Below are positions 8,319-30,769 of a DNA stretch of 30,832 nucleotides, one piece after another (position 1 is the first letter of the stretch; the number at the start of each line of letters is the position of its first letter). Source of the DNA: a virus. The stretch covers positions 1 to 30,832 of IMG/VR virus record IMGVR_UViG_3300043466_000640; one strand, given 5' to 3'. Position numbers and translations under genes: made by a program. The notes under the pieces were generated by a model, which saw nothing but the letters and a program-made list of their open reading frames with translations, was not told the origin of the DNA and ran no database searches.

Positions 8319-10247
8319 TTAGCTTTGCGTTGCGTACTTCAATTCTAATGTTTCAAGCCGCGCCGACACGTCTTGCAGCGACCGCACCAAAAGCGCGACC
8401 ATGTTGGCGTAGGCCAGTGCGTCGGGCCTATCTTCTTCGTCGTATGTTACAAACTCGGTCATGCCTAGCGCGTCTACTTCTTCGGCAATAAGCCCTGCGT
8501 AAACTTTATCGCCGTCATTTTTACCCTTGTAAAATACCGGCCTAAGTTTGTTAAGATCGGCAAGCCCGCGAGAATAATCAGTCACGTCAGTCTTGTATCG
8601 GATGGATGATGTAGACCGCAACAGTTCGCCCGCAACGATACCTAAAACGCAGTTAGCAGCGGCGGCTGTCGTGTTGTTATATGGCGACGCTGCTGCGCTG
8701 CCGGTGAACATTTTTCCGTCGTCTTGGATAAAAAACATATTGGTGCCAGAGCTGTTGCGGATAACTTGGGCGTATGTGGCGGAAGTGGACCCCGTACCTT
8801 GAATAAAAAAGCGGAATGAACCTATAGGCGCTGCACCGACGCCGACTTCAGTTCCGTTGTCTTGGATAATAGACGCTGAGACTGCCGAAGTTCCGTTACC
8901 TTTAAGGAGATAGCCGGATGTTAGTGTTGTCGCGCCGGTCCCGCCGTTAGCAACAGGGAGAGTGCCGCTAACCTGCGTTGTAAGGCTGACACCAGACAAA
9001 GTGCCGCCGAGGGTCAAGCTGCCGCTCGAAGTGACTGACCCAGTCAATGTGATGCCGTTGACAGTGCCAGTGCCGGATACGCTGGTGACAGTACCAACAT
9101 ACTGGTCGTTCGAAGTGATCGTAAAGCTAGGGTACGTGCCGGTAACAACAGTCGTCCCCGCGCCGGTTAGGCTGACAATTTGATCTGGCGCGGCGTTGGT
9201 TATCGTAAAGGAGGGGTAGGTGCCGGACACCGAAATACCCGTGCCAGCGGTCAACGTGACAGTTTGGTCGGGCGCGGTGTTTGTGATCGTAAACGAAGGG
9301 TACGTACCGGACACCGAAATGCCAGTCCCTGAAGTCAGAGAAACCGTTTGGTCGGGTGCGCTGTTCGACAGCGTGCCGCCTGACAGCAGCAGCCCAGTGC
9401 CGACCGTGATTTCTTCGGCGGCGCCGGTGCTGGCTGTAGTGCGCCCTAGCAAGCGGTTGGTGGACATTACCAAGCCGTTGGCGGAAGCATACGCGCTGGG
9501 CGCTACATAGTCGGTCGCCGCAATCGCAGCCAACAAGGCTGTGCCGTTACCTTTGACAAGCCCCGTAACCGAAGTTGAGAGAGTTATAGCCGGAGTGGTG
9601 GTGGCATTAGCTACCGTGCCTGCAAAGCCATTAGCCGATACAACCGAAACGCTTGTCACTGTCCCGACAAAAGCATCTGTCGCATTGATGGTGATAGAGC
9701 CAGCGCCATTGGTGATGCTGACATTTGTGCCTGCCGTCAGTGTTGCTTTGGTCAGCGTATTTCCGGTTGTGTTACCAATCAGAAGTTCGCCGTTGGTGTA
9801 AGTTACTTGGCCTGTACCCCCGCTGGCAACCGCCAGTGTGCCGCCAAGCGTAAGGGTGCCGCTTGTCGTGATTGGCGATCCGGTAAAAGTTAGTCCTGTT
9901 GCACCGCCGGACGCAGCGACCGAAGTGACAGTGCCGCCAAGGTCAGGCGGCGTAACTTCAAAAGCGTCTTGCAAATTGTTTAAGCTGCTCTCAAGTGAAG
10001 CCGTCAGCGAAGTGGCGTCAGGCGCGCTCTGGACGCCTTGCGCCAAATCAATCAACATAGCGTCGTAGGACGCCAGCAATGCCGTAGTGTCCGGCACTAA
10101 TTCGGTTTCTTCTTGGGTAGTTTGCGTTGCAGTCAATAGCGACAGGAAAAACCTATACCATTCACGGCTGATAGCACCCGACCGCTCGTCAATCAGACTG
10201 ACGCGGGGCGGCGTCATTTGCGTAGGATTAGTTGGGGTGTACACCAT
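8319..10247 (-). CDS. Tail fibre with C-terminal S74 intramolecular chaperone
   Basis: The 642-residue protein starts with a short conserved N-terminus (residues 13-35, including SREWYRFFLSLL) that probably docks to the tail. It continues with a long Gly/Thr/Ser-rich beta-repeat shaft and ends, from about residue 550, in an intramolecular chaperone of the endosialidase type (peptidase S74). Visible markers are SSIRYKTDV, the Ser/Lys self-cleavage region, then YAGLIAEEVDAL and LVRSLQDVSARLETLE, which gives a trimeric coiled coil. S74 domains fold the trimer and then cut themselves off. The gene overlaps the gp10-like gene by 1 nt as TAATG. Confidence 0.85.
   Translation of the reverse strand: MVYTPTNPTQMTPPRVSLIDERSGAISREWYRFFLSLLTATQTTQEETELVPDTTALLASYDAMLIDLAQGVQSAPDATSLTASLESSLNNLQDAFEVTPPDLGGTVTSVAASGGATGLTFTGSPITTSGTLTLGGTLAVASGGTGQVTYTNGELLIGNTTGNTLTKATLTAGTNVSITNGAGSITINATDAFVGTVTSVSVVSANGFAGTVANATTTPAITLSTSVTGLVKGNGTALLAAIAATDYVAPSAYASANGLVMSTNRLLGRTTASTGAAEEITVGTGLLLSGGTLSNSAPDQTVSLTSGTGISVSGTYPSFTITNTAPDQTVTLTAGTGISVSGTYPSFTITNAAPDQIVSLTGAGTTVVTGTYPSFTITSNDQYVGTVTSVSGTGTVNGITLTGSVTSSGSLTLGGTLSGVSLTTQVSGTLPVANGGTGATTLTSGYLLKGNGTSAVSASIIQDNGTEVGVGAAPIGSFRFFIQGTGSTSATYAQVIRNSSGTNMFFIQDDGKMFTGSAAASPYNNTTAAAANCVLGIVAGELLRSTSSIRYKTDVTDYSRGLADLNKLRPVFYKGKNDGDKVYAGLIAEEVDALGMTEFVTYDEEDRPDALAYANMVALLVRSLQDVSARLETLELKYATQS
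9108..9359 (-). repeat. Three tandem 84-bp in-frame repeats in the fibre shaft
   Basis: Three consecutive 28-residue units are encoded at 9276-9359, 9192-9275 and 9108-9191 (order of translation). Each starts with APDQ and contains a GTYPSFTIT strand. The first two are nearly identical (GTGISVSGTYPSFTITN), while the third has diverged (GAGTTVVTGTYPSFTIT). The exact 84-nt period keeps the reading frame. Confidence 0.9.
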
Positions 10248-11677
10248 TAGGCGCGTGTCCCTGACAGCAACAGTTCAGCCCCCATAATGTAGATACGTAC
10301 AGGATCAGTCCCGGATGCTTCATATACGCGGTCACGTATCTTCATCGTTGCACCAAGGCGGCGCCAGATAGTGCGTTTGCCAAACCTACCGATGGCGCCC
10401 ATCGACTTCCAATGTTCGTTAGACCATGTATGGCCGCCATCATCAGACCAGCGCAGCATGACTTGCGGGTCGCTACCTTGGCCGTTGTTCAAGCCAACGC
10501 CTGTTTCGCAGTCAAGCTGTAAGGAATGTTGAATGGTGCGGGCGAGGTTGTTAGCGCCTGTCGGCAGCGCGCGCCACGACCGCAACCATTTTTGCGGCTC
10601 ATTGTCGTCGGCGTACACCTCAAGGTCAAACTTGTATATCTTGCCGTTTTCGTAATCGCCGACGATGTTTTGGCTATTAAAGTACATTTGGCTATTGCCG
10701 CGGTGACGATTAAACTGGCCGTTGTCAAAAGAGGCCCGCTCGTGCCATGCGCCTGTTGCAACGTCAAACACCCATGTTGTGTTAGCCGTCGGAAAGTTTA
10801 GCACGTAGAAGTTGTGGCCGTCCTGCTGGTATGTGTAGCCGACAGCATCCGAGATGTCGGCGTACTCTTGCATCTGCCATTCAATAGCGTGCGTTGACAC
10901 GCGTTGACCCATATAGCCCGCCGCGCGGTATACGATACCTTGTCCGCGTGCATCCTTGCCCAGCCAGTAGACTTGGTTGTCCATCTTGGCGACAGAATAC
11001 GGTGCCGCGCAGCCCAGTTCGTTGTACGCGCCTTGGATACGTGTCAGTGGGAAGTCGAGCAACCCTGCGTCATACCAAACTTCCGTTGAGTTTGTACCGA
11101 ACACCCACACTTCACGGTGGTCAACAAAAACAGCTACAACGCCGTCGGGGCTGCCTTCCGCGCTTGCAAACTCCAACGGGTCAATGATGGTGCCTTCGAG
11201 CAACGCCGTAACCCAAATCTTTTGGCTGTTTGGTTCGTTAAAAACAAAATAGCCGTCGATATACCCAACTGATACCGCGCCGGGAAAATCGGGATCGGTA
11301 ATTTGCTGGAATGTGTCAGTAACGACGTTGTAGATGTAACCTTCTGGGTTAGCGGCGACAAATAGCTGCGTGCCGTTGTCGGCCATGCTGACAGGGCCGG
11401 AACCGGCTATGGTTCCTTTAGGGATTGCGTTCCAGCTATTATTGATTTGGTATAGCGTGTTGCCGGATACGGCGTAGCCGTAGTTGCCGAACTGCCACAT
11501 ACCGCGAATAGGCCCTGTGCCAAGCGTAGCCAGACGGGTCAGCCCCGGAGCGCGCTGAAGAAATGCAGGTTCTTTGCCGCCTTCCGGTACGATCTCCGGA
11601 AAGAGGTTGACCATTCGATTGTCGGCGGCGTTGACGCTTCTTGCGACATACGCCGACCCTAAGATCGGCGTCTTCAT
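10247..11677 (-). CDS. Packaged-DNA stabilization protein, P22 gp10-like
   Basis: The product is 476 residues from the ATG at 11677, which overlaps the gp4-like stop by 1 nt. The N-terminal block TPILGSAYVARSVNAADNR, followed by VNLFPE and FLQRAPGLTRLA, is the hallmark of the P22 gp10 (phage_stabilise) family. The body is beta-rich with repeated blade-like units. Gp10 plugs the portal-gp4 channel after packaging and provides the platform for the needle and tailspikes. Its place between gp4-like and fibre genes is the order expected for P22-like tails. Confidence 0.85.
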   Translation of the reverse strand: MKTPILGSAYVARSVNAADNRMVNLFPEIVPEGGKEPAFLQRAPGLTRLATLGTGPIRGMWQFGNYGYAVSGNTLYQINNSWNAIPKGTIAGSGPVSMADNGTQLFVAANPEGYIYNVVTDTFQQITDPDFPGAVSVGYIDGYFVFNEPNSQKIWVTALLEGTIIDPLEFASAEGSPDGVVAVFVDHREVWVFGTNSTEVWYDAGLLDFPLTRIQGAYNELGCAAPYSVAKMDNQVYWLGKDARGQGIVYRAAGYMGQRVSTHAIEWQMQEYADISDAVGYTYQQDGHNFYVLNFPTANTTWVFDVATGAWHERASFDNGQFNRHRGNSQMYFNSQNIVGDYENGKIYKFDLEVYADDNEPQKWLRSWRALPTGANNLARTIQHSLQLDCETGVGLNNGQGSDPQVMLRWSDDGGHTWSNEHWKSMGAIGRFGKRTIWRRLGATMKIRDRVYEASGTDPVRIYIMGAELLLSGTRA

Positions 11678-12387
11678 CAATAGTTCCCAGCGAAGATGTT
11701 GAACCGCTGACGTGTAGCCACAATGCTGTACGGCATCGACATGATGTCGTCAGGGTTGTTGATGCGCTTCAGGTTACGCTTCGACGCCATAGCCAAACGC
11801 GACACTTGCGGTGACGGCTCTACACCAAACTCTGGTGCCATCTCGCACGCCAAGTTGTAACGGAACGCACGCAGATAGCCGGGCGGGAAATGTAGTGTGG
11901 TCGCCAGCGTTGCAGGCTGGGTTAATTCTTCAACCGAAATAAAGTGCCACTCCAGCGCGCGCGTAGGGCGCGGGTAGATGTACATTTCGACGTCAGGAAA
12001 CGTCATGTTGACGAAGATAACCTGCGGGTATGTGGATGTTACGGTTTTGACCGCAATACCGTTATACTGCTGCTGGTTAATGAATTTGATACCGTAGCTG
12101 ACGCCGGTGCCGGGATCGCGGAAATATGTCGAGTCCTCAAGCAGCACGGGGCGGTTGCCAACAAAGTCGCCGCTAGGGCCAAGTGTGCGCGAAAGCTGGC
12201 CTGCTGGCCATGTAAATATCTGGTCTTGCGTCGCGTAGACCGCGAGGCGCTCAGTGTTCCAGCTATCAATCATCTGGTTCATGGCGCGCAGTGCGTCTTG
12301 CGACGTTTCAGCCGATGGAACTTCACCCTCTGCCAGAACGCCTAGAAGCCTAAGCGAACCGTTAATTATGTCCCCAGCCGTTTCCAT
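11677..12387 (-). CDS. Tail accessory (head completion) protein, P22 gp4-like
   Basis: The 236-residue product begins with a helical region (GDIINGSLRLLGVLAEGEVP, then ALRAMNQMIDSWNTERL) that matches the start of the P22 gp4 tail-accessory family. The middle includes FTWPAGQ and a PRPTRALEWHF stretch. The C-terminus FPPGYLRAFRYNLACEMAPEF is also typical of the family. Gp4 binds under the portal ring and lets gp10 attach. An AGGAAG lies upstream of the ATG. The gene follows the coat/decoration block and overlaps the gp10-like gene by 1 nt. Confidence 0.85.
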   Translation of the reverse strand: METAGDIINGSLRLLGVLAEGEVPSAETSQDALRAMNQMIDSWNTERLAVYATQDQIFTWPAGQLSRTLGPSGDFVGNRPVLLEDSTYFRDPGTGVSYGIKFINQQQYNGIAVKTVTSTYPQVIFVNMTFPDVEMYIYPRPTRALEWHFISVEELTQPATLATTLHFPPGYLRAFRYNLACEMAPEFGVEPSPQVSRLAMASKRNLKRINNPDDIMSMPYSIVATRQRFNIFAGNY

Positions 12388-12390
12388 TTG

Positions 12391-12570
12391 TTAGACTTCC
12401 TGCGTTGCGCGGCGGCGACTATTGCGCGCCGACATTTCGTTTGCGGACGCCTCTACAGGGGCGTCAGGGTAATGGCGTTCCCAACCGTATTCCTCATCAA
12501 ATTGCGCTTCTTCTTCCGAAATAGCAACTTTTGCGCCGTGGACGTCGTGAACAAGGTAGATAACAGCCAT
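12391..12570 (-). CDS. 59-residue small protein downstream of the decoration genes
   Basis: A short frame starts at the ATG at 12570 with GGAG about 7 nt upstream and stops 3 nt before the gp4-like start. The N-terminus reads VIYLVHDVHGAKVAISEEEA with a later YGWERHYPD. This 'HGxKVA ... E(A) ... GWxRY' pattern recurs in small proteins beside capsid genes of many phages. The C-terminus is basic (SRRRATQEV). No function is known to me; it is probably a minor head or neck factor, judged only by position. Confidence 0.7.
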   Translation of the reverse strand: MAVIYLVHDVHGAKVAISEEEAQFDEEYGWERHYPDAPVEASANEMSARNSRRRATQEV

Positions 12571-12586
12571 AAAAACTCCGTAAAAT

Positions 12587-12606
12587 GGACGGCCCGAAAG
12601 CCGCCC
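12587..12606 (-). terminator. Intergenic hairpin 3 (after the 136-residue structural gene)
   Basis: On the minus strand GGGCGGC pairs with GCCGTCC (7 bp including one G-U) around a 6-nt loop, followed by ATTTTAC. The T run is short, so it is more likely a weak terminator, attenuator or mRNA-end stabilizer than a full stop. It lies between the 12614 stop and the RBS of the 59-residue gene. Confidence 0.55.
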
Positions 12607-12613
12607 AAATTAG

Positions 12614-13024
12614 TTAAAGGCAGTGGATAACCGCAAAGTTAATCACTACTGCTTCGCTCAAGTTACCGCCGGAAATGTTACGGACGGTAATGGTAACTGT
12701 TCCAGTGCCTTTGCCGGAAACCCAGCAGTTATACGCGCCGGCAGTAGCCCCTGAAGCAACACTCAAAACAACCACATCTTTTGCGCTAACCGTGCTGTTG
12801 TTCAGCGTGAACGTCACGTTGGTCGCTGCGTTCAACTGTGCGTTGTTCATCGTGATTTGACCAGCGGACTTGTTCAGCGTGACGGCAGTTGACTTATTTG
12901 TCAACTGAGTGACCACGCCTTGTGCTGCGGCGGTGTAACCGAGTTCGCTATCAACATAAACGAAATCGGCGCCGTCGATGTTTTGGTCAAGGAAAGCGAC
13001 GCCAATAGATTTTGTATTAGCCAT
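12614..13024 (-). CDS. Probable capsid decoration / structural protein
   Basis: The 136-residue protein has a conserved block VVTQLTNKSTAVTLNKSAGQ and ITMNNAQL, followed by beta-rich VTFTLNNSTVSAKDVVVLSVASG. This is a small phage structural family I know from positions next to the coat gene. The start has AGGAG 7 nt upstream. It is flanked on both sides by GC-rich hairpins, consistent with separately tuned expression of abundant capsid parts. Decoration of the capsid surface is inferred from position and composition. Confidence 0.65.
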   Translation of the reverse strand: MANTKSIGVAFLDQNIDGADFVYVDSELGYTAAAQGVVTQLTNKSTAVTLNKSAGQITMNNAQLNAATNVTFTLNNSTVSAKDVVVLSVASGATAGAYNCWVSGKGTGTVTITVRNISGGNLSEAVVINFAVIHCL

Positions 13025-13042
13025 TGATTTTCTCCTGAAAAT

Positions 13043-13062
13043 GGGCGGCCCGAAGACCGCCC
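13043..13062 (-). terminator. Intergenic hairpin 2 with UUCG tetraloop
   Basis: On the minus strand GGGCGGTC pairs with GGCCGCCC (8 bp, one G-U) around TTCG, giving a C(UUCG)G-capped stem, then ATTTTCAGG. The RBS of the next gene (AGGAG) begins only about 6 nt later. The short T tract suggests partial termination or mRNA protection. Confidence 0.6.
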
Positions 13063-13069
13063 AAATTGG

Positions 13070-13321
13070 TTAAGCGACGACAGCAAACTGCCATTTAGCG
13101 CCATCGGAGATGAACAACTTGCCCACGCCGGTTGCGTTTGTGGTCACGCCAATAGAGCCAGAAGCGACTGTAGTGGTCGTGGTGTTTGCGGTAATTGCAG
13201 TGGTAAGGAAATAGATGCCTGCGCCCGACGTAGCAATAAGTGCTGGGCCGCCGAGCAGCTTGTCTGCCTCGACGTTGCCATCCGAAACCTGATAGGCGGA
13301 ACCGCCATTTGGTAATGCCAT
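13070..13321 (-). CDS. Small structural protein next to the coat gene
   Basis: The 83-residue product begins PNGGSAYQVSDGN and continues with a Thr-rich beta region and a C-terminal KLFISDGAKWQFAVVA strand. It has no membrane segment or enzyme motif. The start has AAAGGA about 8 nt upstream and the gene lies between hairpins 1 and 2. Position and composition suggest a capsid accessory or head-fibre protein. The family is not certain. Confidence 0.6.
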   Translation of the reverse strand: MALPNGGSAYQVSDGNVEADKLLGGPALIATSGAGIYFLTTAITANTTTTTVASGSIGVTTNATGVGKLFISDGAKWQFAVVA

Positions 13322-13335
13322 AATAAAAATCCTTT

Positions 13336-13366
13336 AAAAAAGTTGGCCCCCGGCGAACCGAGGGCC
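13336..13366 (-). terminator. Hairpin 1 after the coat gene, UUCG loop plus T run
   Basis: On the minus strand GGCCCTCGG pairs with CCGGGGGCC (9 bp with one G-U) around a TTCG loop at 13345-13366, followed by AAC and six T residues (13336-13341). It is the strongest terminator-like element of the late block and lies directly downstream of the coat stop. The following genes still need expression, so read-through or partial termination is likely. Confidence 0.7.
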
Positions 13367-13375
13367 GTGATTAAA

Positions 13376-14584
13376 TTAGCCCCACATCCGAACGGCCATT
13401 TGTGGACGGATCGTGCTGTAGCCATACAGAACGTCAATACGGCAAGGCATACGGTCGTTGTTGATGTCGTACTGACGAACAACGCGAAGCGAAATGCCGT
13501 TGTGTACCTGACGCGAAGCCATATCTACACCTTGTGGGAGCAGAAGGTCGGCGGTTGCAAAGGTGATAGCGTCCTTGTGGTATACGAGGTTCTGCGCGTA
13601 TTGCGAAGAAGCCGCACCAACGAACACTACAGCCTTGCTGTTGCCGGGCAGTGTGTTGACTGTGGCAAGAGCATGACCAGCCGAGTAGATTGGTGCAACA
13701 GTGATGTTGCCTGCACCGCCGCTCGAAAGCGCAACGTCTGCAAGAGCAACGAACTGGAACAACGAACCTGTGCTTTCACGCGTCTGTGGGTTGACTGCAA
13801 AGCAGTCAGCTACAGTGAACACGTCGCCAGCCTTGACGGTTGTGCTTGTGCCAGCGCCAGTGATGGCGATGGTGGTCGCGCCTTCTGCCGTAACAGCAGC
13901 CGAAGTCGAACCGCCGGTTGCAGTACGCGAACCAGTGGTGAACTGTTTGATGGACTGCGACATATTGATTTCGTCGAAACCAAGTACGCCCGTACCCATC
14001 ATGCCGTTCTTGAACTGCTTGCTGACAGTGTCAGTTGGGTTGAAGAGGCCCTTCATGCCTTCGACCAAGCCAGCGTTTGCGGCTGGGTTGACAGTGGCAT
14101 AGCGTGGCGACATCACGGCAGCGTTTTCGTTCAGCTTCTGCTGCGCTTGCAACAGAACCAGCGACGAAGAAGGCGTAGTGCCGGGCGTGCCGACCGAGTT
14201 ACCGATGGTTGCATACGCGTTTGCAACGTCAGCGTCGATGCTGGAAGCAAGCTGCGAGATACGTGGCTTGAGAACGCGCTCTGCGAAATCGTCAAGCTGC
14301 ATGGTCAATTCAGCAGTCGTGAAGTTGACGCCGATGTGCTTCTGGTTGGCAACGGTCAGCGTTGTGAACTGTTCGTTGTCGTCCTGTACCTGAAGGGCTG
14401 CACCGTCGGTAACAAGCGCACGGTCTGGAAGACGGATACGCAGAGTTGAACCAATCTTGGCGCCTTCAACAGCAAAGCTGTCGTCGTACTGGCGGTTTAC
14501 GTTACGAGTAAGCACGAGGTTGTTCTCAAGGATTTCGAGAGCCTTCCGCGTGATCATATCAATGGTTAAAATGCTATTGGACAT
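13376..14584 (-). CDS. Major capsid (coat) protein, P22 coat family
   Basis: The 402-residue protein matches the P22-type coat: an N-terminal helix with ITRKALEILENNLVLTRNVN, a GSTLRIRLPDRA block, then TVANQKHIGVNFTTAEL and a LDDFAERVLKPRISQLAS helix corresponding to the spine of the HK97 fold. A Thr/Gly/Ala-rich inserted region (about 230-310), possibly the P22 I-domain equivalent, precedes the C-terminal VLYGYSTIRPQMAVRMWG. It forms the icosahedral shell. The upstream neighbour is scaffold and the downstream one a decoration-type gene. A strong hairpin follows. Confidence 0.9.
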   Translation of the reverse strand: MSNSILTIDMITRKALEILENNLVLTRNVNRQYDDSFAVEGAKIGSTLRIRLPDRALVTDGAALQVQDDNEQFTTLTVANQKHIGVNFTTAELTMQLDDFAERVLKPRISQLASSIDADVANAYATIGNSVGTPGTTPSSSLVLLQAQQKLNENAAVMSPRYATVNPAANAGLVEGMKGLFNPTDTVSKQFKNGMMGTGVLGFDEINMSQSIKQFTTGSRTATGGSTSAAVTAEGATTIAITGAGTSTTVKAGDVFTVADCFAVNPQTRESTGSLFQFVALADVALSSGGAGNITVAPIYSAGHALATVNTLPGNSKAVVFVGAASSQYAQNLVYHKDAITFATADLLLPQGVDMASRQVHNGISLRVVRQYDINNDRMPCRIDVLYGYSTIRPQMAVRMWG

Positions 14585-30745: not shown

Positions 30746-30769
30746 GCCGGGGTGGTGGATCACCCCGGC
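30746..30769 (-). promoter_or_regulatory. Perfect 9-bp hairpin between the edge gene and the polymerase
   Basis: GCCGGGGTG (30746-30754) and CACCCCGGC (30761-30769) pair perfectly with a 6-nt loop. On the minus strand no T run follows (GAGTAG), so it is not a normal intrinsic terminator. It lies 12 bp beyond the upstream gene's stop and 25 bp before the polymerase ATG. It could stabilize an mRNA end or be a processing site. Confidence 0.75.

Follow-up and report, generated by a model that had tools for sequence, protein, structure and literature searches.

Hairpins of the CUUCGG type occur commonly between phage genes, and a 5′ hairpin of this kind is said to stabilise the gene 32 mRNA of phage T4 (PMC8948821). 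The same source describes a GTTCGG hairpin 5′ of the sigma gene of phage 7-11 that is kept in a distant relative; its authors propose that the hairpin stimulates production of this regulator, perhaps by stabilising the message (PMC8948821). Terminators have been placed directly behind the major coat gene in several other phages: the T-phi terminator of T7, which allows read-through (PMC5592923), an apparent strong terminator in LUZ100 (PMC10134795), and a predicted terminator in JG068 (PMC3765740). The hairpins that we describe here, from the capsid genes of a P22-like virus, resemble each of these systems in part. Like the T4-type CUUCGG hairpins (Tuerk et al., 1988, as described in PMC8948821), they are very stable, short and intergenic and have UUCG loops; unlike them, they occur once per gene of the block, are conserved in position across a P22-like group, and are not C-G closed in two of three cases (hairpins 1 and 3). 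With the phage 7-11 hairpin they share an intergenic UUCG loop and, in part, a G before the loop, whereas that hairpin is described at a single site and proposed to serve regulator production. With the T7, LUZ100 and JG068 terminators, as these are described, they share a position directly behind the major coat gene, but their T tract is displaced or short and they form a series of three. Our literature search found no published description of this hairpin series, which seems to extend a known class of phage elements and not to be wholly new.

The window, by which we mean the whole stretch of DNA analysed, corresponds to a linear viral record 30,832 bases long (IMG/VR IMGVR_UViG_3300043466_000640). 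Its minus strand carries a P22-like head module with genes for a portal, a scaffold, the coat protein, proteins of 83, 136 and 59 aa, a gp4-like connector and a head-closure protein. The sequence-only reading had reported three GC hairpins, each 3′ of one gene of the coat/decoration block, and both their coordinates and their assignment to the minus strand are correct. The features of the block are as follows, in the order of the minus strand.

13376..14584, minus strand: 402-aa major coat protein gene of the P22 coat family (PF11651, E 1.7e-38; phrog_283, major head protein)
13366-13345, minus strand: hairpin 1, GGCCCTCGG-TTCG-CCGGGGGCC, 9 pairs, tail AACTTTTTT, 9 nt past the coat stop codon
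13330..13341, minus strand: U6 run and Shine-Dalgarno AAAGGA of the 83-aa gene (from the sequence, and from T frequency before the Shine-Dalgarno in relatives)
13070..13321, minus strand: slot-1 decoration-type gene, 83 aa, with N-terminal tag MALPNGGSAYQVSDGN
13032-13073, minus strand: 42-nt direct-repeat copy with hairpin 2, the preceding stop codon and the following Shine-Dalgarno
13062-13043, minus strand: hairpin 2, GGGCGGTC-TTCG-GGCCGCCC, 8 pairs, tail ATTTTCAGGAG, 7 nt past the stop codon of the 83-aa gene
12614..13024, minus strand: slot-2 decoration-type gene, 136 aa, with tag MANTKSIGVAF followed by a predicted beta-sandwich (phrog_18251, unknown function; structure model)
12576-12617, minus strand: 42-nt direct-repeat copy with hairpin 3, the preceding stop codon and the following Shine-Dalgarno
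12606-12587, minus strand: hairpin 3, GGGCGGCT-TTCG-GGCCGTCC, 8 pairs, tail ATTTTACGGAG, 7 nt past the stop codon of the 136-aa gene
12391..12570, minus strand: 59-aa gene, 3′ of hairpin 3
11677..12387, minus strand: gp4-like head-tail connector gene (phrog_12985; phrog_637, head-tail adaptor; PF11650 slightly below the cut-off)

The hairpin series stops at the gp4-like gene, which lies 3 nt from the 59-aa gene with no hairpin in between. Isolated stem energies of hairpins 1, 2 and 3 are -18.1, -16.0 and -13.1 kcal/mol, and z-scores computed with flanks are -3.5, -2.3 and -2.9. UUCG loops had been noted in the first two hairpins only; the third also has one, which was overlooked. The loop-closing pair is G-C in hairpin 1, C-G in hairpin 2 and U-G in hairpin 3, such that only hairpin 2 has a strict C(UUCG)G. 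The shared core and flanks noted for hairpins 2 and 3 belong to a longer similarity, since both hairpins lie inside the 42-nt repeat, whose copies are 86% identical. With as many as 3 mismatches allowed, a degenerate pattern built from these two hairpins matches the window at the same two sites only, where shuffled sequences are expected to give 0.02. A good T run had been credited to hairpin 1 alone. Its T6 is indeed the longest, but it begins 3 nt past the stem and directly abuts the Shine-Dalgarno AAAGGA; hairpins 2 and 3 have an A and then T4 behind the stem. All three have the GC-rich stem-loop by which intrinsic terminators are recognised. A search of both strands of the window against Rfam gave 0 matches at or above the gathering threshold.

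Comparison with related phages had been proposed as a check, and it shows one hairpin per gene of the coat/decoration block conserved far beyond chance. Three scans, with the coat, 136-aa and 83-aa proteins, yielded relatives (L003-L239) from among the best-scoring matches listed. From 239 loci, two of which were the window's own and failed the filters, 198 passed together with the window by having the coat gene and gp4 in order, and these 199 sequences were reduced to 139 representatives (95% clusters, window included), which are close relatives and not independent samples. We scored every spacer of at least 20 nt from the coat gene to gp4, using a cut-off of -8 kcal/mol and five dinucleotide shuffles. 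Among the matches listed, 372 of the 393 spacers in the 139 representatives have a hairpin at or below the cut-off, against a shuffle mean of 30.8, and 259 of the 393 have a UUCG loop, against 0.4 in shuffles. These 259 loops are closed by C-G (180), G-C (40) or U-G (39). A hairpin follows the coat gene in 128/139 representatives, the first decoration gene in 131/133 and the next gene in 111/112, with mean stop-to-stem distances of 8.0, 7.7 and 7.1 nt, respectively. Since in 11 of the 139 no hairpin behind the coat gene reaches the cut-off, the hairpin is not essential there; among these 11, seven spacers are short (23-28 nt), and the stem of L046 contains a mismatch.

Covariation was assessed in an alignment (A3) of 41 spacers behind the coat gene, 38 of them distinct, chosen without a hairpin filter. 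These are 41 of the 42 top rows by coat-gene identity, L006 being excluded for a spacer identical to that of L003; L046, with its mismatched pair, stayed in, as did poorly aligned rows (L138 among them). In A3, 95.0% of cells pair, compared with 88.8% in shuffles, and seven of nine pairs change on both sides. None of 500 shuffles reaches any of five measures, a comparison that is inflated by relatedness, and structures slid along the alignment drop to 31-64% of cells paired, a comparison that preserves relatedness but favours a structure drawn from one aligned sequence, as here. Judged by its spacing, conservation and covariation, a folded RNA element is retained at a set distance past the stop codon of each capsid cistron.

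In the window and 18 large relatives, we surveyed gaps of 25-200 nt between genes of the same strand, reading each gap on its own strand; gene calls were crude, and a gap outside the block counted only when each of its neighbours had 75 aa or more. Within the block of these 19 contigs, 43/44 gaps have a hairpin and 36/44 have a UUCG loop, whereas outside it 31/89 have a hairpin, with a UUCG loop in 1/89 and other loops in the remaining 30. Fisher's test gives p values of 1e-13 for hairpins and 1e-23 for UUCG loops, with gaps treated as independent, which they are not. Hairpins occur in 11/26 convergent and 4/21 divergent gaps, with UUCG loops in 0/26 and 0/21. UUCG loops are nearly confined to the capsid block. 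A chance origin of the hairpins is ruled out by the pattern search, the spacer shuffles, the specificity to block gaps and the covariation.

Two other recurrent hairpins were observed in the same contigs. At 30746-30769 on the minus strand of the window there is a strong non-UUCG hairpin, GCCGGGG...CCGGC followed by (G/A/T)AGTAGC, that ends 25-27 nt before a gene start; it recurs in G018, G020, G022 and G023, a similar one is present in G008, and G005 and G012 have a differing hairpin at a comparable distance from the gene start. 3′ of the block in G005, G007, G012, G016, G021 and G025 there is a recurrent CG(C/T)AG...CTGCG hairpin that ends 8-9 nt before the start codon, near enough to cover the ribosome-binding site.

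The 83- and 136-aa genes form a two-slot modular locus (13070-13321 and 12614-13024) that is also seen in L005, L013, L019, L180 and other relatives, and that may be a more interesting find than the hairpins. From position and architecture, we infer that both genes encode decoration proteins. Proteins in slot 1 begin with a MALPNG-like tag in 127/139 cases, and those in slot 2 begin with an NTK..GVA tag in 102/122 cases by a strict pattern; inspection by eye shows near variants of the tag in 18 of the 20 misses, and the other two are slot-1 genes displaced by an insertion. Behind the tags, the C-terminal parts differ in length and family. Neither Pfam nor PHROG gives a match for the 83-aa protein at E 0.001, and a fold search with its structure model found nothing (best E 1.9). 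In the model of the 136-aa protein, the first 24 residues are poorly predicted, and are probably disordered, and a confident beta-sandwich is present (mean pLDDT 82.4). Its structural neighbours are a pyocin fibre foot, snail and slime-mould lectins (H-type), phage tailspike domains and other beta-sandwiches, with Z scores of at most 7.6, a level at which a common arrangement may carry little meaning; Foldseek gave no hit for this model at E 0.001.

The C-terminal domain of the window's 83-aa protein is also found behind the slot-2 tag (e.g. in L005). Both slots hold that domain in 20 genomes, where nucleotide homology between the two genes starts at nt 77-153 of the slot-1 gene, mostly around nt 100, past the tag. 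The sequence-only reading took the likeness of the hairpins to suggest duplication, and this is borne out in 8 of the 20, where homology, at 71-81% identity, carries on for 26-42 nt beyond the stop codon, entering or crossing the hairpin; the remaining 12 lose it before the stop codon or at most 4 nt from it. A GGGCGG-type hairpin 2 is present in 8/12 genomes that have this domain in slot 1, compared with 0/22 that have the other slot-1 family (Fisher p 2.7e-5; counted by hand in representatives whose coat gene is at least about 82% identical to that of the window, excluding L080, which has no hairpin call, and L205, which has another slot-1 gene). Behind slot 2 in the same clade, the hairpin is of the GG(G/A)CGG type in 27/27 genomes that have one there, whatever domain precedes it. 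Since the GGGCGG hairpin is tied to the domain in slot 1 and a GG(G/A)CGG hairpin is universal behind slot 2, hairpin 2 of the window most likely arrived with its domain from slot 2.

Pairwise comparisons show that, among close relatives (coat genes more than 85% identical), hairpin 2 is co-inherited with the upstream gene: hairpin-2 identity is 0.75 in the 127 pairs that share only the upstream gene and 0.56 in the 37 that share only the downstream gene. The opposite pattern, with hairpin 2 tracking the downstream gene, is not supported among these relatives, and there is no clear link to either neighbour at lower identity (0.53 for a shared upstream and 0.52 for a shared downstream gene at 75-85% coat identity; 0.57 and 0.51 below 75%). 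Second hairpins of different genomes have a mean identity of 0.51-0.63 in pairs below 85% coat-gene identity. Hairpins 1 and 2 are more alike within a genome than across genomes (0.678 vs 0.544; largest of 200 shuffles, 0.582), and hairpins 2 and 3 less markedly so (0.616 vs 0.564; largest shuffle, 0.588). It is possible, if somewhat doubtful, that this is a plug-and-play locus of two fixed-tag slots with swappable C-terminal domains, in which a domain and its 3′ hairpin move between slots as a unit that brings its own message end and leaves the start signals of the next gene intact. If so, swapping of decoration domains with their hairpins behind fixed tags would bear on how phages diversify their capsid surfaces.

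The sequence-only reading had also proposed a graded series of weak terminators or mRNA-end stabilisers. We scored the hairpins with a terminator formula and modern energies, for comparison only. Hairpins 1, 2 and 3 score -20.9, -5.9 and -18.8, all below zero and with hairpin 1 the lowest, which argues against a graded series with a strong terminator at its head; the hairpins may still be weak terminators or mRNA-end stabilisers. A single strong terminator behind the coat gene of the window is likewise contradicted by the displaced T run and by the lowest score of the three. Scores in relatives exceed zero in 32/128, 59/131 and 26/106 cases at the three positions, compared with 7 of 9 hand-picked gene-end hairpins elsewhere in the contigs, one of them barely (0.1), and stems are kept in relatives where a good U tract is absent behind them. 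A simple terminator scan of the window region lists hairpin 1 and not hairpins 2 or 3, with a total of 17 hits vs 15.3 in shuffled sequence. Nonetheless, each of the three positions shows an excess over shuffled tails of T runs, 4 or longer, that lie no more than 3 nt from the stem (28/127, 83/130 and 50/102, against 9.8, 3.9 and 10.9).

In relatives, T frequency at positions -5 to -2 before the Shine-Dalgarno of the slot-1 gene is 0.67-0.90, and before that of the coat gene itself it is 0.59-0.90 (n=88), compared with 0.25-0.31 at the same positions in 381 genes outside the block; for the third spacers, a Shine-Dalgarno was identified in 44/106 only. A U-rich run directly 5′ of the Shine-Dalgarno marks the coat and decoration genes of the window and its relatives, not genes generally. 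The coat gene of the window, 14 nt behind the scaffold gene, has this type of ribosome-binding site and no hairpin ahead of it, and within 45 nt 5′ of the coat gene just 1 of 113 relatives has a hairpin at or below -8 kcal/mol, none with UUCG. By eye, 6/7 short hairpin-less spacers of relatives retain the U-rich stretch before the Shine-Dalgarno. Because the U-rich stretch precedes the coat gene without a hairpin and persists in these short spacers, the T run appears to be largely a feature of the ribosome-binding site. Regression of the T-run offset from the stem against the Shine-Dalgarno position gives slopes of 0.64, 0.47 and 0.62 (1 meaning tied to the Shine-Dalgarno), indicating mixed anchoring. 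We also examined 16 of 40 named-phage records matched by coat protein, allowing shorter stems and larger loops than in the scan of the 139 representatives. Thirteen of the 16 have a hairpin at or below -8 kcal/mol behind the coat gene, five have UUCG, and six (DSL-LC05, PBR31, BA3, 1.211.A, X14 and VvAW1) have T4-T5 flush with the stem; DSL-LC05 is an isolate whose block carries hairpins of this kind. These six make a terminator origin of the hairpins plausible, and leaky termination the main rival to the role that we propose.

We put at a little under an even chance our preferred reading, that the hairpins are cistron-separating, 3′-end-protecting elements of the T4 CUUCGG kind, maybe with leaky termination. 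They lie between same-strand cistrons that presumably share one transcript, and would be intercistronic structural elements of the late mRNA, one for each presumed high-copy cistron of the capsid block. A stem 7-9 nt past a stop codon is just outside the terminating ribosome, so the hairpin could stay folded while the upstream gene is heavily translated. It may protect the 3′ end of the upstream cistron as a barrier to 3′-to-5′ exonucleases, the end itself arising by cleavage or by polymerase release within the U-rich stretch past the hairpin, and it may keep the next ribosome-binding site unpaired and separately translated. Any transcription termination at the hairpins would be leaky. Leaky termination could instead be their whole function: intrinsic terminators in series, each freeing some RNA polymerases, would leave coat and decoration messages in excess over connector and tail messages. 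The T runs near the stem that exceed shuffled tails, the T4-T5 tracts flush with the stem in six named phages, and the coat-gene terminators known in T7, apparent in LUZ100 and predicted in JG068 are consistent with such a series. We nonetheless consider it tentative and rather less probable than not, given that all three window hairpins score below zero, that scores above zero are less frequent in relatives than among the comparison hairpins, and that the U run also precedes the Shine-Dalgarno of the coat gene, where a comparable hairpin is found in a single relative.

An unlikely alternative is that the hairpins are purely translational insulators, which would block the drift of post-termination ribosomes to the next start and hold the U-rich ribosome-binding site open, giving independent initiation for each capsid gene. 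The hairpins are indeed placed where an independent U-rich ribosome-binding site follows, with none between the 59-aa gene and gp4, and the T frequency before the slot-1 Shine-Dalgarno is far above that of genes outside the block. Yet the coat gene has the same type of ribosome-binding site, close behind the scaffold gene, without a hairpin, and hairpin 2 is inherited with the upstream gene among close relatives. We regard as very improbable that the hairpins are recombination landmarks, their repeated flanks providing homology for exchange of decoration genes with no role in RNA. Compensatory pairing and UUCG loops persist through sequence turnover, pointing to a folded RNA, and second hairpins of different genomes share little sequence, even though a domain and its hairpin were seemingly copied between slots and hairpins 1 and 2, more than 2 and 3, are most alike within a genome. 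What began as a loose guess is now a position-locked element that a large group of environmental phages conserves; if the series is ordinary, it adds one further set to the intercistronic hairpins of phages. Natural variants in which the hairpin is lost, the loop changed, the stem rebuilt or the U run moved could separate the three proposed roles.

Two further observations concern the wider region. The 642-aa gene has an internal 84-nt tandem duplication at 9164-9331, with copies 79% identical. Inserted genes that look homing endonuclease-like by eye adjoin hairpin-bearing spacers in L095 and L197, 5′ of slot 1, and in L004 and L043, 3′ of the 59-aa gene.
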